A DNA stretch of 64,000 nt from Phanerochaete sordida (lineage: Eukaryota; Basidiomycota; Agaricomycetes; Polyporales; Phanerochaetaceae). Where the stretch lies: NCBI GenBank assembly GCA_019973155.2, contig BPQB01000004.1, positions 558,001 to 622,000 of the forward strand, given 5' to 3'. Shown piece after piece: positions 2,880 through 42,583 of this stretch. A program made the translations under genes and the position numbers. Positions within the stretch are counted from its first letter, which is position 1; the number at the start of each line of letters is the position of its first letter. Under the pieces are notes generated by a model, which searched no databases, was not told the origin of the DNA, and saw only the letters and a list, made by a program, of their open reading frames with translations.

Positions 2880-3331
2880 TCTGCTACACAGCACCTCTAC
2901 GCATGTAGCCTGTGGCGGGCTCACCACGGTGTGGGCAGAGGCCCAGCGAGAGCGCATCAGCTTGCGGACGCCATCACCGCATCATCCAGCGTGGAGACAG
3001 ATGGAGCCAGGCGCGCCCTTGCCTGCAGCTTCCGCGCGTGCAATCCGACGTCGATACGTTTCGCACACATCGCTGTTATGCGTTGGGCCATCACGAAGAC
3101 GATGTTGTGCCCCAGTGCCCCAATCCTCTCCTGATGTGAAACGGGGTAAGTCATTGCGCACCGGCTGCCAAGAGTTGGCTCGCTGCTGAGAAGAGCAAGG
3201 CTTTATCCCCGAGAAAGGCGTATAAAAGGGCTTGGTATGCATCTTGCAGCTTCACCGCGGCAGGCCCGGTTCCACTTTTTTGACCTTTCTTACTCCTTTT
3301 TTGTTACATTTACCCTTCTATTTTCGCGAAA
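2880..3331 (+). promoter_or_regulatory. Upstream region of gene A, duplicated upstream of gene B
   Basis: About 300 bp here (2905-3195) match the region upstream of gene B (5450-5720) with many substitutions. Shared blocks include GCGGGCTCACC, CGCCATCACCGCATCA, CGTGGAGACA and CGCTGCTGAG. A TATA box (TATAAAAGG) lies at 3221-3229, 111 bp before the ATG. The same spacing is kept in genes B and C. Conserved upstream sequence suggests the tandem duplication carried its promoter along. Confidence 0.65.
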
Positions 3332-4403
3332 ATGCGCTTTTCATTCTTCACCATTCTCTCGCTCTTTATGTTTATTGGGCTGTCGTTTGCGGCACCTGTC
3401 ATGAACGGCCAGGTTTGTCCTTCTCTACGCCCTAGCGTGCGCTCTCCTTCTCACTCAAAACATCGTACAGGACGCCACACTTGCTCGCCGTGGGGGCATA
3501 CGGATCAACGTCAAGACGCTTACCGGCAAGGTCCTTCCTCTCACCGTCGCGCCAGGCGACACCATCGCGGCCGTCAAGCACCAGGTCGAGGGTGCCAGCG
3601 GCATACCTCCCGGAAACCATCGCCTTATCTTTGGCGGCAAGCAGCTCCCGGACGCGGCTACGGTCGCTTCGAGCCACATCGGCCCTGGCAGCACGGTCAC
3701 CCTGACCCTGGCTCTGCGCGGCGGAAAGGTGAGCTCAATCTGCGCTGTCTTTGCGTGCTGCGCTGACGGCCTGGCTTCACAGCGCGAGGCTGAGGGCGAG
3801 CTGTACCTGCGCGACCTCTTGGCCGAGTATGCGCGTAGCGAGCTGAAAGAGCTCGAGCGGCGCGGTGCCCACCCCTCGGCCCACCCGCGTCCTATCCCCT
3901 CTCGTCCTGTATACAAGTCTATCCGCAACGAAGCCCCTTTCCCCGAGTACACGCCAGCTCCCGCTGCCGAGCGCCGCGGACCCAAGTCCATAATTGCACA
4001 CAAGTCTATACGGGAGGACATGGAGGAGCTCGAACGCCGTGGCCACCCATCCGCCCACCCTCGTCCCATCCCCTCACGTCCTGCACACAAGTCCGTCCGC
4101 GAGGAAGCTCCTTCCCCCGAGCACACGCCCGCTCCCGAGCCCGCCGCCGAACGCCGCGGATTCAAATCTATGATCGCCCACAAGTCTGTGCGGGACGAGC
4201 CGGAAGGACTCGACCGCCGCGGCCACCGGTCTGCCCTCCCCCGTCCCATCCACTCTTTACCCGCCCACAAGTCCGTGCGCGGCGACCTGGACGAGCTCGA
4301 GCGCCGCGGATTCAAGTCCATGATCGCACATAAGTCTGTACGCCATGACGCGGAGGAGGTCCCTCCCCCTGGCTTCACGCCCGCCCCAGCTGCCACCCGC
4401 TGA
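3332..4403 (+). CDS. Gene A: secreted ubiquitin-like protein with Kex2-type peptide repeats
   Basis: Three exons, 3332-3412, 3471-3728 and 3783-4403, joined in phase 0, give 319 residues. Residues 1-20 are a signal peptide (MRFSFFTILSLFMFIGLSFA). A short pro-segment ends in LARR (33-34). Residues 37-112 align without gaps to all 76 positions of ubiquitin at about half identity, keeping Leu8, Lys48, Ile44 and the terminal LRGG. Next comes KR-EAE at 113-117, the arrangement seen in yeast alpha-factor (Kex2 site, then Ste13-type dipeptides). The last exon has RR-G sites at 139-140, 177-178, 198-199, 237-238, 258-259 and 287-288. These separate type I peptides (HPSAHPRPIPSRP-like) from type II peptides (GFKSMIAHKSVR-like). 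All sites are visible in the sequence; processing by Kex2 is inference. I know no named family with this layout. Confidence 0.88.
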
Positions 4404-5160: not shown

Positions 5161-5851
5161 TGAACTCAAGTCGGGCGACGAAGGTGGACTCACAGCCTGC
5201 GCGCGCCATCACACGCATCTTCTTCGGTCCTGCGTTCTCGCTCGAAGATGCTGCTGGCTGCACAGCTGTCGTCAGCTCTTCGTCACGCATTGCACGGCTC
5301 CTGCGGACCATCATGCGACTGTCGCTTGCCGCCCCGCCAGGTCAGTCCTTTCCGCTGCTCCGAGCTACGCAGCTGACTTCTGCGAAATGCAGAGCACAGC
5401 AGACTGCGGCGTGCCGAGTCGATTACGCAGCCCCTACGCCTCTGTCAGCGTGCGGCGGGCTCACCGCGGACTGCCTAGAGCAAGCCCATAGCAGCACCGC
5501 GAGTGCACGCCATCACCGCATCAACCAACGTGGAGACAAATGGTATGCCGCGCCCCGGCCGCCATGCGTAGGCATTGTTCGGGGCGCGTTTCGCACGCAT
5601 GCGTCTCGCCATCACCATCGTAAAGGCGGCGCCGGGCTCCACTCGACGATGCAAAGTGAGACGGGGCAGCGCCTGCACACTGGCTTGGCCAAGGCTTCCG
5701 AATGCATTCGCTGCTGAGGAGAGCAGCAGCGTGACTACACCAGAGGCATATATAAGTGCTGAGGACGTGTTCTACAACCTCATCACAGCAGTACTCTTAT
5801 CCTCCAGTCGGTGGATTTTTGCCCAGATTTACACTCTACTGCGACGACGAC
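5161..5851 (+). promoter_or_regulatory. Upstream region of gene B
   Basis: This is the counterpart of the gene A upstream region. A TATA-like box (ATATATAAG, 5748-5756) lies about 100 bp before the ATG. The block CGCTGCTGAGGAGAGCAGCAG just upstream of it matches CGCTGCTGAGAAGAGCA in front of gene A. Confidence 0.6.
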
Positions 5852-6991
5852 ATGCGTTTTTCGTTCTTTGCCCTCCCGCTGCTCATCTTGAGCGGCTTGT
5901 CGCTTGCCACGCCTACCAGGGATGACCAGGTCTGTCCTCTCTTGTAAAATTATCTTTGGGCGAAGTCGCTGACACCTGTTGCTTCAGGCGACTCCTGCTC
6001 GAGCCCTGTCCGGAGATGTGCGTATCATCTCATAGGGGACTCTCTCCATGTTTAGCTTACAAGCTCATTGCAGCTCGCGGACGCTTACCCTCGCGCTGAT
6101 AACGTCATTCGCGGCGATGCCATTTCCGGCGGTACGTCCTACACGCCTTCACATCGCACGCACACTCACGCGCCTTCCTACCGCCAGACCCTATGCTCGC
6201 CCGCCGCAGCTTTCAGGTCACCATCGCCATGCTCACGGGGAGCACAATCTCGCTTACTGTGAACCCGGACGATACGTTCGCCATCGTAAAGGGCTACATT
6301 TTTGAGGTGGAAAACATCCCGACGGGCAACCAGCGCCTTATCTGGCAAGGCAGGCCAGCCCCCGACTCGCAAACCCTCACGCAGGCTGGCGTCGGCCCCG
6401 GCGCCACGATCACACTCGTTCTCGCGGTCGGCTCTGGCTCGGTACGTACTCCACCTCGATGTCTACGGAGATTTCAACCGCTGAGTCTTGCTCGTCGCAG
6501 TCGTCCGCCCCGGCGCCGAGCGGCGGGGTTGCCCGCGCGCGAGGGCGCAACACGGCTGCGGTACGTGGCCCGGCCATCACGCGGGCTGGGATCTCCTGCT
6601 GACCGCTACGTCCTGCAGCGCGCCCAGGTCACCTCGCTCTCCCGCCGCAGCTTCCAGGTCACCATTACCAGGGTCTCCGACGGCAGCTCGATTCAGCTTA
6701 CCGTGAACCCGACCGACACGTTCGCTATCGTGAAGGACGACATCGAGGCGGTGGAGGGCATCCCGCCGGCCAATCAGCGTCTCATCTGGCTGGGCAAGGC
6801 ACCCTCGGACTCGCAGACCCTCGAGCAGGCCGGCGTCGGGGCTGGCGACACGATCTACCTCGTCCTCGCACTCGGCGGTTCGGTGCGTGCTCTGCCTTGG
6901 GCATGATGGTGATGGCGTCCGGCTAATGCGTGCCCCACAGTCCACCGCGCCGACGCCGAGCGGAGCGGTTAAGCGCGTCAGAGCTTTCTAA
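5852..6991 (+). CDS. Gene B: secreted protein with two ubiquitin-like domains
   Basis: Seven exons give 264 residues: 5852-5929, 5988-6017, 6074-6131, 6188-6441, 6501-6560, 6619-6882 and 6941-6991. The signal peptide (MRFSFFALPLLILSGLSLA) is a clear relative of gene A's. The first ubiquitin-like domain follows LARR (61-62) and begins SFQVTI; it ends VGSGS with no diglycine. The second follows LSRR (169-170), again begins SFQVTI, and ends LALGGS. Both keep the NQRLIW block (NHRLIF in gene A and QQRLIF in ubiquitin) and the DSQTL block. A Ser/Pro/Ala linker (SSAPAPSGG) sits between them, and a matching tail ends AVKRVRAF with a KR site. Separate exons for linker and domains indicate internal duplication. 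Secretion and dibasic trimming are inference. Confidence 0.85.
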
Positions 6992-10596: not shown

Positions 10597-12653
10597 CTAA
10601 GCAATGTTTTTGGCCACCCCGCTTCTCGGCTCAATCTTGCACTTGAACGGCTTCGGATGGCTACAAGGCGAATGAATAGCGTGAGATGCGTATATACAAT
10701 TTCTTGACAAATTCTCTCGCACCTGATCGTGCCGCTGGTGTACTCCGGCTCGGGCGTGAGCACCTGGCCGTTCTCGACCGCCTTCGAGATGGTGAACGTC
10801 GCCAGAACACGCGCGCACGTGATGAAGAGCGTCGCATCCGCGAGGTGCATGCCTGGCGTCCCGTTAGCGTAGAGGAAGAGGGCCCAGCATCAGGTTCTCA
10901 CCTGGACATATTCTGCGCGGCGTGAAGAGGATGAGCTGTGGACGGCTGAAACGGCGCGAGGCAGTCTTACCTTCGTCCGAAGCCAAAGACGAACAGCTTG
11001 GGATCTGGCGCTACAGGCGTCGTTTGTGCTGCTAAGTACCGGGAAGGGTTGAACGCGAAAGGGTCGAGATAAACATCCGGGTCATGTAAGATTTTCCTAT
11101 GAGGCGAATGAGACTCGTGTACCATTGGCGCTCAAATAAGAAGATGAGCCGTACCATATATTGGCGATTACTAGCGTGTTCTTCGGTATCAGGTATCCCT
11201 CGTAGAAGTCATCGCGCGTCACGCGATGTGCGACGCCTGAAAGTCATGTATCCGATAAATCTGGGATTCCACCCCGCGCACTCTGCAACTCACCAAGCGG
11301 AGCGACCGGGTTCCATCGCAGGACCTCCTTGATCAAAGCTTCGATATAAGGCAGATTGGCGCGGTCGGCGGAGATGGGCAGCCGCTGCGGCCCGACGACA
11401 GCGTCGATTTCAGCTTGTGCGCGGCGCTGCACGTCCGGATAGAGGGTCATCGCCAGGAAAAACGAGTCTATCGCCGAGACGGTCTGTACCATGATGAGTA
11501 TGTCGCGGCCTAGCCACACAAGATGCACGTACTGTGTCTGCGCCGCCTAAGCATCTCGGGTAAGCAAGGACGCTGCGCGAGAGCTAGGGGGAGCGTACCG
11601 CCGTACAGTGAGGTCGCGGCCCATTTGATGTTAAATTCGTTCTGCTCTGTCTGCATTTCTGTCCGCAGCAGCAGCGAGGTGAGACTCGGTGTGTCGATTT
11701 GCTTGGCCTGGGACGTTCTCAGAAAGGGTCTGGCAAGACTAGCCGCGACAAGCTAGAGCTTACCATCTGCGCCTTGACAAAGTCGAACGGCAGGTCCGCC
11801 ATCGCGTCGATCGTCCGCCGGTACTCTGGGAGCTGCTTTTTGAAGCGTGCGCCGGGGACCCAGCTTGGCAGGTATCGGAGCACGGGGAAGACGTCCACTA
11901 GGAAGGCGCCTGGCGAGGTGATGGCGGAGAACTGGTCTGTCGCCCGGTCCACGGCCTCGACGATCGGGTCCGCGCCTTCGCGGACGTCGTAGCCATACGT
12001 GATGTTGAGGACAATCGCGCCTACGAACCTAGTCCCAGATCAGGTGGCGCACGCGCAGGACTCAAAACCAGATCGTACTTCCGTACATGCGCGCGAAAGT
12101 CTTTCGGCTCGTCCCGGAGCCTCAGCAGGAGCCTGTCCGCCTCGCGCTCCGTGAGCCCAACATGCCGCGCGACCTGCGCGTGCCCGCCGATCCACCGCGC
12201 GATGTAGCGGCGGTACGTGCGGAAGCGCTCGCCGTACGGCAGCAGCACGAGCGAGCGGCTCCAGCCGACGAGCTCGCCGCTCATCGCGAGCACGGGCCGG
12301 TCGGAGTAGACGTCGCCGCGCTTGTCGAGGAGCGCAGACGCGTGTGGGGCAGAGTTCAGGATGACCATCGGTTGTCCGAGGAGGTTGAGGTACACGATGT
12401 CGCCTGGATGCGTCGGTGTCAGCGCCTCGGCGCGTGGATGTGGAGGGCGCGCACCGTATTTCTCGCCCCATTCGGCGAACCGGCGCCACTCGTGGGACGT
12501 AGGCATGTCGAGGACATTGCCTATGAGTGGAAGGCCTCGCGGACCAGGTGGATACGGAGAGCGCTGCTGGAGTTTTCGATAAAGCTGAATCAGTAGTACA
12601 GTCACAGCGAGTGTGAGAATGACATGTAGCGGATTGAGTACCGCATCCGCCAT
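10597..12653 (-). CDS. Cytochrome P450 monooxygenase 1
   Basis: A heme-thiolate monooxygenase of the basidiomycete microsomal type. An N-terminal anchor helix (VILTLAVTVLLIQLY) precedes the proline hinge (YPPGPRGLP). The I-helix has GGADT, the K-helix has KEVLRW (ExxR), and the heme loop reads FGFGRRICPG. The C-terminus is HPKPFKCKIEPRS. It is split by many short introns. GGADT and the heme Cys are encoded by tiny exons of 14 nt (11533-11546) and 11 nt (10902-10912). The start at 12653 was chosen because the paralogues start at the same point before the anchor; an upstream in-frame ATG exists at 12767. First of four minus-strand copies. Substrate is unknown. Such genes are often labelled O-methylsterigmatocystin-oxidoreductase-like; the CYP family needs formal naming. 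Confidence 0.9.
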
Positions 12654-13100
12654 GTTTTTTGGGCGAGGAAAACGGAGCACATTTTCAGACGGTAGCTCGG
12701 GACTTGTACTCTCTGGAGCCTCCTGCTCGAGGTCTGACCTTGCGCCGATCGCAATCATAGCAAGCACGCGCTCGGCTGAAAATATCTCTGAGGTCTCTGA
12801 TTATCAGATGTCCACTCTCTAGCGGACTGTGAGGTCAGCCAGGCAAACATGTGCATCATACGGACGTGCTTACTTGGCGAACATATTTGCGTTTAGGTCC
12901 AGAAGCATGGCAGACACCCGAGACACCCGAGGACGGTGATCATTCCCACACAACCATCATGCTGGCGCGCGGCACGAGAACACAAACTCAGTAACACGCT
13001 CGATTGGGCGGAGCAAGGACACGCGGACCCTCTTTCGCAGTCGTCTAGAAGCTACCCTGTAGCGCCTGTGCGCAATGCGGAAACCATAGCCACCTCCGTC
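12654..13100. other. Spacer between P450-1 and P450-2
   Basis: 5' flank of P450-1 and 3' flank of P450-2. No further gene is seen. Confidence 0.5.
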
Positions 13101-15153
13101 TCACGCCCCGCCGGCGTTGATCAGGTCCTTCGTTTTGTCGGAGCGCGGGACGATGCTGCACTTGAACTGCGGGCGGCTGCCGGAGCATGGTCAGCCGGAG
13201 CGCGGTGACGAGACCTGGGGACACGAACGCGCACCTGACTGTGCCGCTCGTGAACGTCGGCGCCGCGCTACCCTGCGAGGGCTCGCGGATGTCGAACGTG
13301 GCGAGGATCATGGCGCAGGCGATCCAGACGGAGGCGTCAGCGAGATGGAGCCCTGGTATTGCGTCAGTGGGAACCAGCTCGACAAATGAAACGGTACGCA
13401 CCTGGACAGACGCTAATCGGTGCGCAGTTCTCTGTGAGTACGCGGACGAGCGAGGGGCAGGAGGGCGCGCACCGTCTGCCAAACCCGAAGACAAAGTCGC
13501 GGGGGTCGGGCGCAGCTTCGGTCCCGTCCTTTGCAAGGTGGCGCGCCGGATCGAATTCCGCGGGGTTCGGATAAATCTCCGGGTCATGCAGATATTTACT
13601 GCGGCGAGATGAGCTAGAAAATGCAGCAGTAGCAGATGACATACCCAATGTTAGTGATGATGATAGAGTCCTTCGGAAGGAGGTAGCCTTCGTATACGTC
13701 GTCTTGTCTGAGTCTGTGGGGTAGACCTGCAAGCGGAGACACGTGAAGATGTGCGCAGAACATCTTTGGAGACAGACTTGCCCAGTGGACCGATGGCGTG
13801 CCACCGCAGCGACTCTTTGTAGGCGGCTTCGACGTAGGGCAGGCTTGCGCGGTCCGCGAATGCTGGCAGACGTCCGGCTCCGATGACGGCGTCGACCTCG
13901 GCCTGTGCTCTTTTCTGTGCGTCGGGGAAGAGCATCATCGTGAGAATGAAGGTGTGTATAGCGGTGACGGTCTGCGACGCAGGAAGTCAGCGACGACTGT
14001 CAAAAGTGTACCAAGAGGCAGAAATGATATACCGTGTCGGATCCACCTGCAGATCGCGAAACGTCAGGGGGCATCCGAAGAATGAATCTCGTATGTGCTT
14101 ACCTGAGTAAAGCGATGCGGCTGTCCACTTGATGTCATGCTCCTTTTCGCCCGCTAATTTTTCATTGCTGAGGAGGTCGGACGTGAAGCTCGGGATCTCT
14201 GCATGTTTGGCCTTTACTTCTGGTCAGAACGAGCAAGACAACATAGACTACTCGTCGCACGCACCATCTGCTCTTTGACGAACACATGGGGCACGTCCAC
14301 CATCTTCTGTAAGGTCACCTTCCACCGCTTTGCTGTCGCCTTGAACGTGGCGCCCGGTACCCAGGCTGGGACATAGCGCAGCAGCGGGAAGACGTCGACG
14401 AGGAATGCGCCAGGCGTGGAGGCCTCAAAGAACTTGTCAATGGCCTCATGAACGACCTCAAGGAGAGGATCGTCGTCCTCCTGGACTCTGTAGCCATGTG
14501 AGAGAGTGAGAATGATCGCAGCAGCAGTCCTGCGAGTTCATCAGCGCTCCGGGCGTGCAGAATGAACATGCGAACATACTTTCGTAAATTCTCCAGTAGC
14601 TCATCCGGCTTGTTCAACAACCTTTTCAGGAGTATCGTGGTCTCGCGCTCCACTAGCGGGAGGTGGCGCTCCATCTGTGCCTTGCTGCCGATGGACTTCG
14701 CCATGAACCGCCTGTATTCGCGGAAGCGGGGGCCGTACGAGAGGAGACCGAGGCTGTCCTTCCAGCCGACGAGGTCCCCACCCATTGTGAGCATTGGGCG
14801 GTCGGAGTAGATCGTCCCCCGCTTGTCGAGCAAAGCAATAGCATCCTTGGCCGAGTTGAGGATGATCATTGGCTGGCCGAGCAGCTGGAGGTAGACGATG
14901 TCGCCTTGAGCCCGTGAGTTAGCGGTACATGCCAGAAATTTCGAGTAACGTTCGTACCGTATTGCTCGCCCCAGCGAGCAAAGGTCAACCACTCGTCCTC
15001 CTTCGGCATTTGCAAGATGTTTCCAATAATAGGCAGACCCTTGGGTCCGGGCGGGTAACGGGCGCGCTGCCTGCTACGAGTGATCACGGCCTTGAGTAGG
15101 ATGACTGTCAGGATCGCGAACGCGATGTCCAGATAGATTGGCAGGTGGAACAT
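13101..15153 (-). CDS. Cytochrome P450 monooxygenase 2
   Basis: Same family as its neighbours. It has an anchor (LDIAFAILTVILLKAVI), YPPGPKGLP hinge, GSDT in the I-helix, KESLRW (ExxR) and FGFGRRVCPG. The last exon ends KDLINAGGA. The 14-nt exon for GGSDT is 14033-14046 and the 11-nt exon for the heme Cys is 13402-13412. The intron at 13727-13781 needs a GC donor (GCAAGT) to give the conserved GPLGLPHRL; with it the frame is intact. The start at 15153 matches the paralogues, though an in-frame ATG at 15192 also exists. A TATA-like box (CATAAAATG read on the minus strand, about 15212-15220) lies about 60 bp upstream. ER-membrane bound; substrate unknown. Confidence 0.9.
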
Positions 15154-23689: not shown

Positions 23690-25520
23690 GCGTCCGCATT
23701 GCACAATGTCTCACATGCGCTACCTGTGTGTACTGCTGCGAGCGGGGATCTGCGTTCTCGATGCGTGAGCCCTGGGCCAGCTGACCGCCCGCACACCCAC
23801 ATCCCGCCCGCATCATTGACACGTAGGCGCGCGGAGGGAAGCGCGCGCAGGAGGATGGGCGTTCTCCTTTGTACTGAGGTAGGGTGCACGGGAGAATCCT
23901 GCAGAATGCGCGCGTCACGGTGCAGCTCTAGCGTATCCCAGGGTCTGAAAGGGTCTGAGGAGCTTATTGTCTGCTGAGCCGGCTGGTGATCCCCAGCCTC
24001 AGCGCGCTCGGCAGGGCTCCCGACTGGTGTGCCGAGCCCAAGACTTTCCGTTCCCAAGCGAAACCCTCCAGCATGCGCAGAACAACCGTACTGGCCCTGC
24101 TCGGAGCGAGCGCACACGTGATTGTAAGCTTTCTGCTCGATCCTTAGGACTGCGGGCTCATGTTCAGGCTTTCTGCTCTGGCAACAGCTTCCGCGGACCC
24201 TGTGGCGCGTCACGGGAGGAATTGCGAGGGTATACTCTGAAATCGCGCAGGACCATTTCCAAACCATAGGCAACGTTTATGTCCTCACTAGGTGCAGCCC
24301 GCTGGCTCGTAAATCATGCTTGGGATTCATACACCATAGTCACTCGCGCTCTTCTCTTCGCAACCGTGTATGTCATGGAAGCTCCGGGGGCTAAATCAGC
24401 GTGGCGAGCCTCGCTGTGGCATGTAGGTACTCTACACCGATACTCGGAGATCATGTCTAATCACCGCCTCAGAGACTCAGATTGGCTTTGCAAAGGCTAT
24501 CCCATCTTCGACACGCTGTCGGAGGCCATCCGGAGGAGTGCGCACAGGTCAGCCAGCGTATACACGTCTTCCGCGACTTGGCCTCCGACGAGGCTATGCG
24601 CACTTCGTGCTTTCGCGTTCGCTTAGAGCCCATTGCGGCGTGATGACTCACAGCCATTACGGGTTACGCCCCCGGTAGAATGAAGGATGACCATGCCATC
24701 AACAAACCTGAGCGTACTGGGGATCTAGCTGCGAAAGACGTCGCGAAATGAGAACGTAGTGAGTACATAGACCTGAGCTAGTGAAACATTGCTGGCGTGC
24801 ACTTACTGGTGTGCAACCCAGTGACTCATATCAAGTCATGGACCGCTCAATGTGGTATGTGATTTACCAGCTAGAAAGGGTCTGGAACTCAGTATTGCGT
24901 TCTTTCAGCCGGCTTTAGAGACACGAGCCACCCGCTGTGTAACTGTTACGTCGATATATCGAAGTGCCGCCGTAATGACAGGATGGCACACTGACAGCTT
25001 TCCGCGCGAACCATTCCTCCCAGCCCGAAATGGCGGTCAATGAGGAGTGCGCGCAGCTGATAAGAGATCGCGATCTTACGTCCGATGCGCAGCGGACAGG
25101 CGTTGGGCCTGCGAATCGAACTCAAACATCGGATCCGAGGCAAGTCCCGGCGCCGCCTGCCCCGACACTCAACGCGAGACTAGAACGCGCTAGACAGGCG
25201 CGCTTGGCACGCCGCCTACACGCGTCCATGGTACCCTCCGCCGCTCCCGTGCGAGCTGCAGGGGCAATGCACAGCGCTGGGGGCGGGATCGTGCCGTGTG
25301 CTGCGCGTGTGTGAGTGCTGGTTCTCGCCGAGATGACATCCCGCTAACTCTGTTCCACTACAGCCACAGCACCCGTCCGGCCCACCGATGCCGGCGTCAT
25401 TCCCAGCATGCGCCACCGCGATGCTGGGGACGCATTAAGCTCCAAGGTATAAATGCCAGCCATCTCAGGGATGATTTACTCACCTCTGCCCCCTTCGCTT
25501 TATCCCTTTCTTTCTGCACC
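23690..25520 (+). repeat. Upstream copy of a duplicated block (with P450-5)
   Basis: No gene is seen in it. Blocks here recur in order at 27890-29692: GAGGAtGGGCGTTCTCCTT near 23850 and 28010, GCGCGCGTCACGGTGC near 23905 and 28065, a stretch near 24540-24660 and 28860-29000, and one near 25240 and 29420. The pair of blocks carries P450-5 and P450-6. A TATA box (TATAAA, 25448-25453) lies 73 bp before the P450-5 ATG. Confidence 0.7.
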
Positions 25521-27584
25521 ATGTTCAGCGGGCTGACGTATTTCAACTTCGCATTGGGGGGCCTCGCCGTTGTCCTCCTCCAGACATACATTTCGCGGAG
25601 CAGGCAGCGCGCACGCTACCCTCCAGGCCCGAAGGGGCTCCCCGTCATCGGGAATGTGCTCGACATGCCCAAGGAGCACGAGTGGCTCACGTTCGCAAGC
25701 TGGGGCGAGAAGTACGGTGCGTGCTCACCCCAGCCTGTGCAGCTGTCACCGACTAACGGCGCCTTCCCAGGCGACATCGTCTACCTCAGCCTGCTCGGGC
25801 AGCCCATGGTCGTCCTCAACTCCGCGAAACACGCCGTCGCACTCCTCGACAAGCGCAGCAACATCTACTCTGACCGTCCGGTGCTCACCATGGGCGGCGA
25901 GCTCGTGGGTTGGAACAAGATCCTCGCGCTGGTGCCCTACGGCGAGCGCTTCCGCGAGTACCGAAGGTTCATGGCGAAGCTTGTGGGGACCAAGACGCAA
26001 ATGGAGCGGCACCTCCCACTCGTCGAGCACGAGACGCGCAACTTCCTGAGGCGGATCCTCCGGCATCCTGACAATGTCGCAGCGAACATCCGCAAGTAAG
26101 CTTGCTCTGTTCGTCACCCGCTTCGCATGCCCTGACAAGCCTGGAACCTACAGAACCGCTGGCGCGGTCATCCTCACGCTGTCGCACGGGTACAAGATCC
26201 AGGAGGAGAACGACCCGTACGTCGCGCTCGTGGACCGCGCGATGCAGCAGTTCACCATCGCGACGACGCCCGGCGCGTTCCTCGTCGATGTGTTCCCGCT
26301 CCTGCGGCACGTCCCTGCTTGGTTCCCTGGCGCTTCGTTCAAGGTCAAGGCGCGGGAGTGGAAGGACACGCTGGAGACTATGGCAGATGTACCACACACA
26401 TACGTCAAGGAGCAGATGGTCAGTTCCTTGCCTGTTCGTCGGCGGTGCCTGCTCACAGGCCTGCAGGCGAACAACGCAGAGATCCCGAACTTTACCTCGG
26501 AGTTGCTGCGCGATGAGAAGATAGATGATGAGAAGGAGTTCAACATCAAGTGGTCTGCAGCATCGCTGTACTCAGGTACGCCCGCGTCACGCCTCGCGCC
26601 TTATCGCCGCTCATCCACAGCACGCTTGTAGGTGGTGCAGATACGGTACGTAGACATTTCACTGGGGTCACGCGCCACGCTTACCCATGACCTGCAGACC
26701 GTGTCGGCCATCCACACCTTCTTCCTCACGATGGTCCTCTTCCCGCATGTCCAGAAATGCGCCCAGGCGGAAATCGATTCTGTCATTGGAAGTGACCGGC
26801 TGCCTACGTTCGCAGATCGGCCGAACCTGCCCTACGTCGAGGGCGTGTTCAAGGAGGCGCTGCGCTGGCATCCCATCGGCCCCCTAGGTACGTCGGCTAC
26901 GAATCAAATCCCTCACGTGCTGACGTGCCTGTGCAGGCCTGCCGCATAGACTCACGCAGGATGACGTGTACGAGGGCTACCTGCTGCCCAAGGGCACGCT
27001 GCTTATCGCCAATATTTGGTTTGTGATCCCTTGTCTCTGCGTATATGCCCTTCTGATGTGGCGCACAGGAAATTCCTTCATGACCCAGAGGTGTACCCGA
27101 ATCCGTCGGACTTCGACCCCATGCGGCATTGTCCTGAAGATGGCAAGGCAGCGGCGCCCGACCCGCGCAACTACTGCTTCGGGTTTGGTCGACGGTGCGT
27201 CTTCATGTCATTCGCAGCAGAGCTTCCTCTTACCGGATTTGATTTCGTTAGGATATGCCCAGGTAAGCTCGACGCTGACACCCCGGGTTTGCTCGCGCTG
27301 ACCCCCAGTAGGACTCCATCTCGCCGACGCCTCTGTCTGGCTTGCGTGCGCGATGGTGCTCGCTGCGTTTGACATCGAGAAACCTGTCGTCGACGGAAAA
27401 GTCATCGAAATTCACCCTGAATACACGAGCGGGACCGTCAGGTGCGCTATCATGTCCCTTTCAACGTCTCAAGGGTACGACTAAGCGGTACATCTTCAGC
27501 CACCCGAAGCCGTTCAAGTGCACCATCAAGCCTCGGTCATCGAGAGCAAGGGCTCTGATCGTCGGTGACGAGGAGCAGGCGTGA
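25521..27584 (+). CDS. Cytochrome P450 monooxygenase 5
   Basis: Eleven exons give 510 residues. Exon boundaries are 25521-25716, 25771-26095, 26154-26418, 26467-26575, 26632-26645, 26698-26887, 26937-27018, 27069-27194, 27252-27262, 27312-27441 and 27500-27584. An anchor helix (FNFALGGLAVVLLQTYI) is followed by YPPGPKGLP (33-41). GGADT falls at about 299-303, ExxR at 356-359 (KEALRW), and the heme ligand is Cys438 in FGFGRRICPG. The 14-nt and 11-nt exons carry GGADT and the heme Cys. It is a near twin of P450-6, with the opposite orientation to P450-1 to -4. A monooxygenase of unknown substrate. Confidence 0.92.
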
Positions 27585-27889
27585 CTCAAGCAGGCCTGTC
27601 GCCTGGAATGACCACGGACTATCCTTATTTTTTATACGCTATGCTCATGATTCAGATGTATATGATACCCCGACGCCACCCTCTGCAAATCCGCGTTTTA
27701 TGTCAATCTAGCTCAAAACTGGGCTTCTGCTCAGGCTCCTTCCCATGCCGTCCTTCCTAGTGGGACGTCTGTGCGGGCCCTCAGGCCAAACGGCTTGATT
27801 CATGCAACAGCCAGAGTGCGAGGTCCTGCGCTTGGGCCCAGGATGGAAGCAGGTTATATTGAGAAGGTAATTTTCGCACTTACGAGATG
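27585..27889. other. 3' flank of P450-5, nothing seen
   Basis: AT-richer 3' flank ending at the start of the second duplicated block. Confidence 0.5.
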
Positions 27890-29692
27890 GGACTCATCTA
27901 ACGTCGCCCGCAGGTTCGGACGACCTCTCATTCGGAGGTCGGCAAGGAAAGGAGCCTGGGCTGCTGACCGCACCCACACCGCGCTTGCATGATTGGCACG
28001 TAAGCGAGGAGGACGGGCGTTCTCCTTCGCAGTGAGGCAGGGCGCATGGGAAAATCCTGCCGGACGCGCGCGTCACGGTGCTGCGCCGTCATGCTCCAGG
28101 GTCTAGCTGATGAGGCTGGTGTTCACCCCACCGCCTGCGCGCTCGGCAGGTATTTCGACCAGCGTGCCGTGCGCAAGAGCTCCTACGGCCAAGCGAGACC
28201 GTATAGCATGCGCAGGATAACTATACCGACCCTGCTCGGAGCGAGCGCATGCATGATTACGCTTCCTGCGCCGTGCTCAGGACTGCGGGCTCGCGTTCGG
28301 GCACGCTGAGGGCTAAGACTATCTGCTCTAGGATACAGGTTTCGTGGACCCTACGGCGTGTCAAGAGAAGGGTTGCAGGAGAGCTCTGGTCGAGGTAGGT
28401 CAAGCTTAGCTCACGGGCCGCTGGATTTTGTGCTGATGTCGCCCAGGCCGGCGTCCCTTTCTGAATCCCTCCGCCGCCCAGACATCAATCGCTGGGGCTA
28501 TAGACTTTGCTGTGGCGCGAGACGCACCAAAATGAAGCACTTCCCACGTCGAACACGTCACAATGCATGTGGCGTCGGCACAGCCGGTACGCGCTCTCAT
28601 TTGCGGATAATGCTCACTGTTCTTACGAGGGCCAGCCCACTGGCCCATGCTGGGGACTCGTCCAACGCAAATTATCGTCGATGTTCTTCTCTTTGCCATC
28701 CTGTATGCCATGGTCGCTACTCTGAATTTCTGCCCTTATCTATATCGAGGCACCACGGCACGTAAGCACTCAGATACTGGCGTAGAAGATCGTGTCTGAT
28801 CAATTCAGATTGGCCTCCAGGAGACCATCCTCCTTGAACCCCACCGCCGAGAACCACCTGGCGGAGCGCGCACAGGTCAGTCAGCATATACAAGTCTTCC
28901 CCGACTTGGCCTCCGAGGAGGCTATGCGTACTTCGTGCTTTTGCGTTCGCTTATAAACCATGGCGGCGTGGTGACTCACAGCTATCACGCGTTGCGCCCC
29001 TTGGTAGAGGGCAGCACGTCCGTAGGCCTAGCCATCAACAAGCTTAAACGTACTTGAGATCTTACCATGAAGGTCTTTTGAAAATGAAATCTAGTGAGCA
29101 GGTCTGCGGCAGTGAGATATTGCACTTACTTACGTGCAAACTAGTGTTCTATATCACGCCATGGACTGCTGGCAATGCAGTATGTGCTCCCCCAGCTGTG
29201 AAGGGTCTAGTGCTCAGCTAAGCATTCCATTCTTTCAGCCGGCTGTAGTGGCACGAGCCACCTGCTTCATAACTACTACGTCGAGATCTCGAGGACTCGC
29301 CGTAATGACACGGTATCGCACTGACACCTTCGGCGCGAGCCATCCAACGCCAGACCTACGCCAGAACGCGCTAGACAGCCGCGCCTGACGCGCCCCCTGC
29401 AGCCTCACCCTCCCCGCTCCCTCGCGAGCTGCAGGGGCACTGCACAGCGCCGGGGACGGGACTCCACGGCGTGCTGCGCGTGTGCAAGTGCTGGTTCTCG
29501 CCGAGATGACGTTCCGCTAACTATGTCCCACTACAGACGCAAATCCTGCCCGTCCCACCGATGCCGACACCAGTTTCAGCGTGCCGCATCTCGATTCAGA
29601 GCAAGCATTAAGCTCCAAGATATAAATGTGTCCCATCCCAAGGACGATTTATTTACCTTTCCCCCTTCACATTCTCCCTTTCTTTCTGCATC
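27890..29692 (+). repeat. Downstream copy of the duplicated block (with P450-6)
   Basis: Counterpart of 23690-25520. It holds the P450-6 promoter with TATAAA at 29621-29626, 72 bp before the ATG. The proximal 200 bp keep the P450-5 promoter almost unchanged (GGTTCTCGCCGAGATGAC). No gene is seen in it. Confidence 0.7.
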
Positions 29693-31766
29693 ATGTTCAG
29701 CGGCCTGACGTATTTCAACTTCGCGCTGGTGGGCCTCGCCGTTGTCCTCCTCCGGACATACATATCGCGGAGCAGGCAGCGCGCACGCTACCCTCCGGGC
29801 CCAAAGGGGCTCCCCGTCATCGGGAATGTGCTCGACATGCCCAAGGAGCACGAGTGGCTCACGTTCGCAAGCTGGGGCGAGAAGTACGGTATGCAGCCAC
29901 CCAGTCTCACCCGCTGTCACCGACTGACAGCGCTTCCCCAGGCGACATCGTCTACCTCAGCCTGCTCGGGCAGCCCATGGTCATTCTCAACTCCGCGAAA
30001 CACGCCGTCGCACTCCTCGACAAGCGTAGCAACATCTACTCCGACCGCCCGGTGCTGGCCATGGCCGGAGAGCTCGTGGGGTGGAGCCAGCTCCTCGCGC
30101 TCCTGCCGTACGGCGAACGCTTCCGCGAGTACCGCAGGTTTATGGCGAAGCTCATCGGGAGCAAGACGCACATGGTGCGGCACCTCCCGCTCGTCGAGCA
30201 CGAGACGCGTAGCTTCCTGAGGCGGCTCCTCCGGCATCCCGACGCCGTCACAGCGGACATCCGCAAGTACGCTTGCTTCGTTCGTCGCACGCTTCGCATA
30301 CACTGATAGCTCTGGGACCTGCAGGACCGCCGGCGCGATCATCCTCACACTGTCGTATGGCTACGAGATTCAGGAGGAGTGCGACCCGTACGTCGCGCTC
30401 GTGAACGCCGCGATGGAGCAATTCGCCACCGCGATGACGCCCGGCGCGTTCCTCGTCGACGTGTTCCCGCTCTTGCGGTACGTCCCTGCGTGGTTTCCCG
30501 GCGCGTCGTTCAAGGCGAAGGCGAGGGTGTGGAAGGACACGCTGCATACCATGGCAGACGTGCCGCACAAATTCGTCAAGGAGCAGATGGTCGGTTCTTT
30601 GCCCCGGGTACGGCGGGGATACTTGCTGACAAGGCTGCAGGCGAACAACGCAGAGATCCCGAACTTCACTTCGGAGTTGCTGCGCGATGAGAAGATGGAC
30701 GACGAGAAGGAGTTCAACATCAAGTGGTCTGCAGCATCGCTGTACTCAGGTACGCTCACGTCACGTCTCGCGCTTTATCGCTGCTGAGCCCTAGTACGTC
30801 TCTAGGTGGCGCAGACACGGTACGCTGAGATCCCACTTTCAGCCACGCGACGCGCTCATTCCCGGCTTGCAGACCGTGTCGGCCATACACACCTTCATCC
30901 TCACGATGGCGCTCTTCCCGCACGCCCAGAAGCGCGCCCAAGCGGAAATCGACGCGGTCATTGGAGGCGACCGGCTGCCTACGTTCGCGGATCGGTCGAG
31001 TCTGCCCTATGTCGAGGGTCTGTACAAGGAGGTGCTGCGCTGGCATCCCGTCGGCCCTCTGGGTGAGTTGACTGGCGTTGGGATGCCTGCACGTGCTGAC
31101 GTGCTGGCGTGTGTGTGCAGGCCTAACGCATAGGCTCACGCAAGATGACGAGTACGAGGGCTACCTGCTCCCCAAGGGCACGCTGGTTATCGCGAACATC
31201 TGGTTTGCGATTCGCCCTCTCTGCGTATATAGCCCTTCTGATGTGGCGCACAGGAAATTCATGCATGACCCAGAGGTGTACCCTAACCCGTCGGAATTCG
31301 ACCCAATGCGGCACTGCCCTGACGATGGCAAGGCAGCGGCGCCCGACCCGCGCAACTACTGCTTCGGGTTTGGCAGACGGTACGTTCTTGTTCAGCTCAG
31401 AGGGTAGCGCCCTCTTACCAAGCTGCATTTTGCTAGGATATGCCCAGGTGCGCTCGCCGCTGGCAACCCGAATTTGCTCGCACTGACTTGGACTAGGACT
31501 TCATCTCGCCGACGCCTCGGTATGGCTTGCATGCGCGATGGTGCTCGCTACATTCGACATCGAAAAACCTGTCGTCGACGGGAAGGTCGTGGAGATCCAC
31601 CCTGAGTTCACAAGCGGGACTGTCAGGTGCGTCATCACGGCCCTCAAGCTTTCCGAGCGCGACTGAGCGATGAACCTGTAGCCATCCAAAGCCGTTCAAG
31701 TGCACGATCGAGCCTCGGTCGTCGAGAGCCAGGGCTTTGATCGTCGCCGACGAGGAACATGCGTGA
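29693..31766 (+). CDS. Cytochrome P450 monooxygenase 6
   Basis: Tandem duplicate of P450-5 with the same eleven-exon plan. The anchor (FNFALVGLAVVLLRTYI) precedes [14 protein letters not shown] is on a 14-nt exon (30806-30819), KEVLRW is the ExxR element, and FGFGRRICPG has its Cys on an 11-nt exon (31437-31447). The end is [20 protein letters not shown]. All essential motifs are present, so both copies look functional. Start chosen at 29693 because the paralogue starts identically (MFSGLTYFNFAL). Substrate unknown. Confidence 0.92.
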
Positions 31767-40375: not shown

Positions 40376-42583
40376 TCAAGGCCGAAGCTGCTCAGCTTCT
40401 TGCTTGTACCCCGAGGAAAGTGGACCGCGCACCTCAATATACTCGCCTGCGCAAGGGCTACGGAGCAGGGCTTCATTCGTGGCCAGATATGTCAAGTATG
40501 CTCTCCGTTTGTATTCGCTTGTCAAGGCTTCCAGGCGTGCCCCTTCGTCCTGTGTCGTGTGAATGACCGCCCATCTCACCACCTCGACGACGGTCCGCTT
40601 GTTGACCTCCCGCTCCCCAATCATCTCGCAAAACGCCCATCGTTCGACGTCATCTTTGAGGCTGACCAAGCAATACGAGATGTCTTCTAAGAGTATACCG
40701 TGGCTGTGTAGGACAGATAGTTGAAATCGCGTCTCCGAGTCGCCAAGCGAGAGCTGGATGATATCGGGGCTGTCATCGGAGCCGTCCAGCAAAACGCGGC
40801 ACGGGTGGATGACATAGCCCCAGTGGCAGTACTGCCCGTGCTCGCTGGTGTACAGCTGCTTCGGATCCACCAGCTCGAACACGTCGCCGGATGACCCCAT
40901 TCTAGAGGTCGTTGTAGCGAGTCGAGGTCTGCTCGGGTGTAGCGTCCCACGCAGCGAAGTGAGGAACGTTTCCCAAGACGTCCAGATGCCGAACGGCCGC
41001 TCCGGCGAGTAGTGAAGCGAAATCTCTGTGCGTCGGTGTGGGTCCATGTGCTTGAGTAGCAGCGTCCAGGCGTCCTCTTGAGTCACGGACTCGTCGTATA
41101 TCGGCAACGTGCGGCAGCGGAAGATGTACGCGAGTCCGGATATGCGGTCAAGCTCGGTGGTGCACGCCCGCGCTCGGAGGGCCTGCGCGAGGCTGAGGTC
41201 GCTGCCAAAGCCATTCACTGCGCGTACGATGTCCTCGAGCCGGTCGAAGAATGCCCTCCCCTCCTCGAGCGGGCCGCCTACAAGACCACCTGGCAGCCAG
41301 CCGAGCGTCGACTCTTGCAGCGTCCAAACGCGGTTGAACCACTGGCGGTGCGATTCCAGCGTAGCGGCGGAGGTATCAAGGGGGAGTCCGAGGCCGTTGA
41401 AGTAGGTGACGCACGGTGTCGTGGGGCGGGAATAAGTGTAGCCGATGGTGGGTACATCGAGCCTCCACTCTGCCTGCCGCACCGCTTCCTCTTTCTCGTT
41501 CCCGCGCTGGCGCAGGCAGAGAACGTCCAGCCAGACGTACTCTGCCCCCATGTTCAGCAGTTCGATGCGGATGTGGTCCAGAGTGGTGGTTTTCGGGATG
41601 GGGACGGGCCAGCGTTTGCCGTTTATCTTCGTCCAGACTTCGAGCCGGTCTTCTTCAGTAACCCAGCTGTGTGAGACACACCAGACGCTGGAGGGAATGT
41701 CTTCGGGATTAGAGCCCTGATCTGGAGGCAATGCTTGCAGAGGAAGTACGCGATTGGCGTATAGGTCCCATACGTGCCTCGGCGGAATGCGCGAGTTTTG
41801 GATACAGGACCCGCGGATAGCCTCCTTTCGTATCATGTCAAGTTCGCTCTCGCGGTGGGCGATGTGGGTGAAAATGTCGCGAAAACAGTCTCCTCGCCAC
41901 CAAGGGCGTAAAAAGCCATAAACCTCTCCAAGGTCGCGATAGTCGTGCAGACAGCGCTGGAGGCAGTTGTACAGACCCTGCGTGCGCAAGGTGAACTCGG
42001 TGCGCATGATGTCGTTGAGCATATCGAGTGCCTGGTACAGGTCGATGTCCTTGCAGGGGACGCCTGCCAGCACGTCTGGGATGGCGCCGTCCCCGACGTG
42101 CACGCGCTGAAGCGGTATCTTGGACCGGAAGCGCGGTCTCAGCGTGAAGGTCATGCCACGGTCCGCGTTTTGCGATCTGAACAGGATCTTCTCGGGGACT
42201 GCGTGCGATAGTGCGAGCTGCACCATGCCCCAAAGGTGCAGGCGGTTTTTCTCGGGGGTCGCGCAGCCCACTCCGCGATCCCGGATCCGTTGGTCGAGGG
42301 CGGCTGGGACCACAATCGTCCCGTTGTCCCGTGATTCCCAAGGAGGGTCTTCGCATGCTATGATGGCCGATGTTCCCTCCAGGACAAATCGTCGCCGAAG
42401 GTCCTGAGAATCATCAGGTTGCTCTGAGACGTCCGTAACGGCTTCGACATTTTGCACAGCAGACGAGGTATCCTGAATATCTGTAGACTGTACAAGGCAA
42501 TCAGCTCAGCCTGATTCGCGATATCGAGGACATCTTACCTCTTCCTTAGCAAAGGCATCCCCACCTGTCGCTGGAGACGTCAT
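40376..42583 (-). CDS. HET-like protein 1
   Basis: Two exons, 42539-42583 and 40376-42487, give 718 residues starting MTSPATGGDAFAKEE. The HET-like core spans about 283-430: SSVWCVSHSW, MGAEYVWLDVLCLRQRG (Cys-containing signature at about 334-342), YFNGLGLPL and RVWTLQES at about 401. The rest resembles HET-like protein 2 in order. The acidic N-terminal leader is unique. Genes of this family are usually polymorphic and often occur in tandem. The domain name is inferred from motif order, not a profile search. The 3' end could be altered by splicing into HET-like protein 2 (donor at 40432). Confidence 0.75.

Follow-up and report, generated by a model that had tools for sequence, protein, structure and literature searches.

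Kex2-processed repeat proteins (KEPs) and secreted ubiquitins are both described, and a gene of the white-rot fungus Phanerochaete sordida appears to combine them. The gene, called gene A here, lies at 3332-4403 on the plus strand of a 64,000-nucleotide stretch of contig BPQB01000004.1 (positions 558,001 to 622,000), which we refer to as the window. In our reading, with a probability of roughly 0.7, the product of gene A is a secreted, processed precursor of the KEP type, with a folded ubiquitin/NEDD8-like protein as its first cargo and small repeated peptides as later ones; this figure covers the precursor and its processing, not a role outside the cell.

The interplay of Kex2, Kex1 and Ste13-type enzymes is known from the yeast alpha-factor precursor. 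That precursor has a KR-EAE junction (PMC9769878), as gene A does, but its cargo is a short peptide rather than a folded domain, and in gene A EA follows the KR site only. As defined in PMC6339444, a KEP has a signal peptide, gives at least four fragments after cutting at KR or RR, and carries at least three repeated motifs between the sites; the KEPs described there are like gene A in the signal peptide, the repeats and the KR/RR sites between repeats. The GH128 precursor 365456 of Coprinopsis cinerea is likewise presented as a Kex2-cut secreted precursor holding a folded domain; there, however, the folded part is a glycoside hydrolase at the C-terminus, and the detected peptide came from outside it (PMC9769878). 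A term search did not find the word 'ubiquitin' in the main texts of the KEP papers PMC6339444, PMC7329392 and PMC9769878. Gene A would differ from KEPs in that its first cargo is a folded ubiquitin of 78 residues and that ubiquitin folds are the main cargo of its sister genes.

Extracellular ubiquitin (eUb) of mammals is the same molecule as cytosolic ubiquitin and has no dedicated secreted gene, and the ubiquitin part of the cyst nematode protein UBCEP12 is nearly canonical and not known to be bounded by Kex2 sites. According to PMC10892293, eUb acts outside cells and its fragments are antimicrobial, fungi included. UBCEP12 likewise joins a signal peptide, ubiquitin and a C-terminal extension that are cleaved apart (PMC5705921, PMC4532164), but the extension is short and single and the cleavage is described as taking place in the plant (PMC5705921); nematode UBCEP proteins are presented as host-directed factors (PMC5705921, PMC4532164). 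Gene A has this effector layout, with a different origin and ubiquitin identity. BfUbb of Bacteroides fragilis, 63% identical to human ubiquitin (PMC3352274), likewise combines a signal peptide with a stand-alone ubiquitin fold and acts outside the cell as an antibacterial; it differs in being bacterial, freed by signal peptidase alone, and devoid of the terminal glycine and of a precursor tail (PMC5705921). The initial annotation of the locus, made from its sequence, knew of no described family like this one. Given the KEPs, which occur throughout the fungi, and the nematode and BfUbb ubiquitins with signal peptides, that statement was too broad; in the open-licence literature, however, we found neither a paper on secreted ubiquitin-like proteins in fungi nor any account of a KEP that carries a ubiquitin fold among its cargos.

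Gene A and its ubiquitin-like domain

Gene A comprises the following features (positions in the window).

3221-3226, plus strand: TATA-like box TATAAA, 111 nt upstream of the ATG
3332-3412, plus strand: exon 1, signal-peptide-like by hydropathy and cleavage-site fit; MRFSFFTILSLFMFIGLSFA, then, after the putative cleavage site, APVMNGQ
3413-3470, plus strand: intron 1, 58 nt, phase 0, placed by its splice signals
3471-3728, plus strand: exon 2, DATLARR, the ubiquitin-like domain and K, from the spliced frame and the Pfam match
3486-3491, plus strand: RR (residues 33-34), Kex2-type site ahead of the domain, from the dibasic scan
3492-3725, plus strand: predicted released product, residues 35-112, 78 aa, GGIRINV...LALRGG, from fold and identity
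3729-3782, plus strand: intron 2, 54 nt, a multiple of three with no stop codon, whose retention would remove the KR site
3783-4403, plus strand: exon 3, the R of KR, the EAE spacer, the KEP tail and the stop; alternating units bounded by RR-G, six [YH]KS[VI]R cores

The three exons join in frame into 319 codons and a stop. Both introns (58 and 54 nt) are of the GT-AG type and contain a CTNAY branch-like motif, which lies 16-17 nt before the 3' end, and in a protein search the spliced model was identical across all 319 residues to a deposited P. sordida protein, P0001, which bears the name 'UBL domain-containing protein'. Judged from its sequence, the model of the gene at 3332-4403 is sound, and the introns 3413-3470 and 3729-3782 of the initial annotation hold at this level. 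The signal-peptide-like start, LARR, LRGG, and KR-EAE across an exon junction were likewise found as it had noted, the K and the R of the dibasic site being split by the junction of exons 2 and 3.

Within residues 1-30 the hydropathy of the protein peaks at 2.4 (residues 6-17), compared with 1.3 elsewhere, and the stretch SFA-APV fits the (-3,-1) rule of signal peptidase cleavage. By this hydropathy proxy, gene A probably has the N-terminal signal peptide that belongs to the KEP definition.

The domain that follows is identical to human ubiquitin at 39/76 positions without gaps, i.e. 51%, which bears out the earlier hand count, and at 38/76 positions to each of P. sordida ubiquitin and P. sordida NEDD8. 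It matches the Pfam ubiquitin profile PF00240 with E 1.4e-17 and 63.7 bits (curated cut-off 25.4), and its predicted structure is the ubiquitin beta-grasp fold, as the initial annotation had expected, with a predicted local distance difference test score (pLDDT) of 90.8 and a query-normalised template-modelling score (TMq) of 0.94 to ubiquitin. With a profile score above the cut-off and this predicted fold, the domain is best placed in the PF00240 family; it can be described as a compact, cysteine-free ubiquitin scaffold. A viral fold search returned known viral ubiquitins, as fold matches only.

NEDD8 (RUB1) is a cytosolic protein. Its LALRGG end, including A72, is identical in gene A and unlike that of ubiquitin. 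P19, V30, E31, S34, G46, P51, G64 and A72 are common to gene A and P. sordida NEDD8 and absent from P. sordida ubiquitin, whereas eight other residues agree with ubiquitin only. In a tree of 76 columns and 12 branches (one starred), the approximately unbiased (AU) test of a grouping with NEDD8 gave a p value of 0.153, so the tree is compatible with an origin of the family domains from either ubiquitin or NEDD8. L8, I44 and K48 are retained, V70 is replaced by T and K63 by P. The domain ends in RGG, as conjugatable ubiquitins do, and this end would be free only if KR were cut. The loss of terminal glycine that characterises BfUbb is not seen in gene A, where GG is kept; it is seen in the five sister domains.

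These residues bear on the idea that the released domain enters another cell, or the producer, and there acts as a diglycine-activated mimic of ubiquitin or NEDD8 that blocks or rewrites conjugation. We consider this quite unlikely: the diglycine is gone from five of the six family domains, V70 and K63 are replaced, a product staying outside the cell meets no E1 or ATP, and we know of no uptake signal, although none was sought. The NEDD8-like end and the retained L8, I44 and K48 speak for it, as does the covalent binding of BfUbb to human E1 in vitro (PMC3352274). Within the family, only gene A might play such a NEDD8-like mimic role.

Gene A and its sister genes

A PF00240 profile search of the assembly gave 33 matches, six of which fall within four genes: gene A, its sister gene B, also in the window, and two genes, Cm and Cp, arranged head to head on contig C9 (locus L011). 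Cm encodes 213 aa with two domains, Cp 167 aa with one. The features of gene B are as follows.

5749-5754, plus strand: TATA-like box, 103 nt upstream of the ATG
5852-6991, plus strand: gene B, 264 aa, signal-peptide-like start, two ubiquitin-like domains, equal to deposited protein P0004
5852-5929, 5988-6017, 6074-6131, 6188-6441, 6501-6560, 6619-6882 and 6941-6991, plus strand: exons of the spliced model
6202-6207, plus strand: RR before domain 1, from the dibasic scan
6208-6441, plus strand: ubiquitin-like domain 1 by sequence and Pfam, end LAVGSGS, no RGG
6643-6648, plus strand: RR before domain 2, from the dibasic scan
6649-6882, plus strand: ubiquitin-like domain 2 by sequence and Pfam, end LALGGS, no RGG

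Each of the four spliced models agrees fully with a deposited protein (P0001, P0004 and P0007 by search, P0008 by eye). Each gene has a hydrophobic, signal-peptide-like start, a phase-0 intron directly after the signal-peptide exon, and a TATA-like box at -103 to -127, which random 50-nt stretches of the window match at 1.7%; the second exon encodes 10 residues in B, Cm and Cp. The two domains of gene B are clearly duplicates of each other. The diglycine is kept in the gene A domain only, and B, Cm and Cp have no repeat tail like that of gene A. The sister genes, the repeat tail and the NEDD8-type end had all escaped the initial annotation.

The family bears directly on whether gene A is a gene-model artefact, that is, either a gene for ordinary cytosolic ubiquitin whose hydrophobic start is accidental, or a pseudogene in decay. 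The deposited models come without stated RNA support; four genes with a like start, intron phase and TATA spacing, open frames, an intact core, a predicted fold, and nonsynonymous divergence (dN) below synonymous divergence (dS) all speak the other way. We rejected an accidental start or pseudogene because of the four matching genes, the intact core and dN < dS, and regard an artefact as highly improbable.

Among the proteins found by the searches, the family members had themselves been queries and are returned by construction. P0002, P0003, P0005, P0006, P0009 and P0010 were set aside as matches of different architecture by eye, and the four checked for a signal-like start (P0002, P0003, P0006 and P0010) had none. 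P0009 is encoded on an ENA contig of 726 bp. It matches 24% of Cm, inside the second domain, with 88% identity and then runs on into a short-chain dehydrogenase, so the contig is probably chimeric; it hints at a close relative in another sample. Four further ubiquitin-domain matches cluster on contig C33 (L009:2219-2371 and 5611-5775; L010:129-308 and 3317-3481), and behind each of them lies a second conserved region which, by eye, is similar to the Mollisia ubiquitin-domain protein P0006.

Dibasic sites, repeat tail and proposed processing

RR stands 0-3 residues ahead of six of six family domains, with the domain starts as set in this analysis (junctions LARR-GG, LARR-S, LSRR-S, LERR-D, LVRR and DRR-DTM), and [KR]R occurs inside none of the six mature domains. 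The chance of RR in five random residues is 0.006-0.045 per domain, with a product of 9e-12 that serves as a guide only, the domains not being independent. As a control, RR was sought in the eight residues before the match in 15 other ubiquitin-type hits and found in none; this control is weak, as splicing was ignored and several matches start mid-domain, and it left out 12 further PF00240 hits (10 polyubiquitin units and two second pieces). In a model of Cm with a mean pLDDT of 69.6, for which the alignment had only four sequences, pLDDT falls below 50 in stretches 19-42 and 121-136. Both lie at or adjoin dibasic sites, and exposed linkers would be expected to score in this way. The Foldseek matches of this model were di- and tetra-ubiquitin, with a lowest E of 3e-15 and a best whole-chain TM of 0.35, a low value that we ascribe to a different placement of the two domains. 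As for processing enzymes, the single P-domain match of the assembly sits in a frame that most resembles kexin, DPP IV-type matches occur at one site on contig C35, Ste13 being a member of this family, and there are 58 S10 carboxypeptidase matches, among which Kex1 was not singled out.

The number of sites carries less weight than their placement. In arginine-rich gene A there are 8 [KR]R against 5.1 expected (p 0.12) and 7 RR against 3.5 (p 0.047), i.e. within or barely above chance, and an argument from dibasic number to processing was rejected on these values; it is the placement of the sites that is unusual. Another possibility is that there is no processing, either because the whole protein is secreted or because intron 2 is kept and KR never made. 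The near-chance count agrees with it, and intron 2 is 54 nt long, in frame and stop-free; set against these are the placement of RR at all six domains and the good splice signals. Introns also follow three of the five other family domains (both of gene B and the first of Cm), which supports intron 2 of gene A, and we judge the absence of processing unlikely. If intron 2 were retained, the product would read LRGG-KVSSIC and stay uncut, so splicing might act as a switch.

After KR, gene A continues with a 26-residue spacer beginning EAE, then with alternating units opened by RR-G, of 38, 21, 39, 21, 29 and 31 residues, which contain six [YH]KS[VI]R cores. At the DNA level the tail repeats measure 89 nt (three copies, spacing 180 and 150), 40 nt (four) and 18 nt (five), the 18-nt core repeat search having picked up 5/6 cores. 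Cutting in silico at KR/RR gives nine fragments, the first containing the signal peptide. As far as its sequence tells, gene A is a KEP by the published definition. No other copies of the tail peptides were found in the genome (best other match E 0.08), and no UstYa cyclase gene was found near the window, one on the same contig lying about 412 kb before the window start. The tail peptides may be signals, by analogy with what is proposed for other KEPs.

With such a tail, the peptides released from it could be the real product, while the ubiquitin part would be a folding helper or spacer, like that of ubiquitin-ribosomal fusions, and would be discarded later. The repeated units, dN < dS in two repeat pairs and the standard KEP layout of gene A fit this, and the 12-residue extension of a nematode ubiquitin is described as active itself (PMC5705921). 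We nevertheless find it rather doubtful, as cleavage behind RR34 would release the domain as a discrete unit, and as B, Cm and Cp are without such a tail, so that ubiquitin folds would be the main cargo there.

For a secreted, processed precursor, which we prefer, the following route is proposed. Residues 1 to about 20 would be removed by signal peptidase, kexin would cut behind RR34, KR114 and the tail's RR sites, and a Kex1-type carboxypeptidase would trim KR, leaving a 78-residue protein ending LALRGG and seven tail pieces. Gene B, Cm and Cp would follow the same route; between them they carry five ubiquitin folds (one or two per gene), all of which have lost the diglycine. Gene structure, domain borders, placement of sites, repeats and a kexin gene are seen in the sequence, the fold is predicted, and the Kex2 release of ubiquitin-like proteins seems well supported at the sequence level. 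The initial annotation had proposed secretory release of a ubiquitin-sized protein with a free diglycine end; the secretory-type start, the fold, the RR border at 6/6 domains and the kexin homologue favour release, whereas the diglycine is confined to one gene.

Several points weigh against this reading. The match to P0001 is not transcript proof, because the P. sordida annotation was made with BRAKER2 and manual curation, RNA use not being stated (PMC8530024). The signal peptide of gene A is read from hydropathy, and we infer secretion, cutting and trimming of the precursor. Common ancestry of the genes would make the RR sites before the domains non-independent, and the tree speaks neither for nor against a single clade of the six domains (AU p 0.22). 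Sequence exchange, to which repeats are open, blurs dN/dS. Protein searches, each scoring only about 8000 candidates that share most words, found no orthologues outside P. sordida, although distant ones can escape them.

Elsewhere in the window, cytochrome P450 matches were found in four of the 10 frames scanned (12024-15073 and 25194-30303), and a weak match to the HET (heterokaryon incompatibility) domain at 40379-42505 on the minus strand (E 2.9e-5). A bacterial-type promoter scan and a tRNA scan gave nothing.

Possible role outside the cell and meaning

Since five of six family domains are without the diglycine, a function shared by the family is unlikely to need it, and diglycine chemistry or conjugation is an unlikely shared function. 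By analogy with BfUbb, our best guess is antagonism or defence against neighbouring wood-inhabiting microbes rather than conjugation, a tentative guess and more apt to be wrong than right. Full-length ubiquitin is described as poorly antimicrobial, the activity residing in fragments (PMC10892293), and bovine ubiquitin had no effect on bacteria inhibited by BfUbb (PMC5705921), which indicates that the fold alone is no toxin; both count against the guess.

A more far-reaching idea is that this lineage turned a ubiquitin or NEDD8 gene into a Kex2-released family in which, in gene A, a Kex2 site replaces the bond after GG that a deubiquitinase would cut, so that the secretory pathway would make a conjugation-competent, NEDD8-tailed ubiquitin for other cells; we hold this to be improbable. 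KEPs that carry ubiquitin folds may also exist beyond P. sordida. YukD has a ubiquitin-like fold. Type S-1 of the Peniophora KEPs, the most duplicated type (37 proteins in two strains), is listed with YukD, NifZ and DUF5109 motifs (PMC7329392) and may be a second case. Gene B also has a loose Pfam match to YukD (E 0.0025), below the cut-off.

If our reading is true, the ubiquitin fold is a cargo of the fungal Kex2 route, and dedicated secreted ubiquitins extend to fungi. The family shows both states together, one domain with the diglycine and five without, and would offer, in a transformable white-rot fungus (PMC8530024), a system for asking what ubiquitin does outside the cell.
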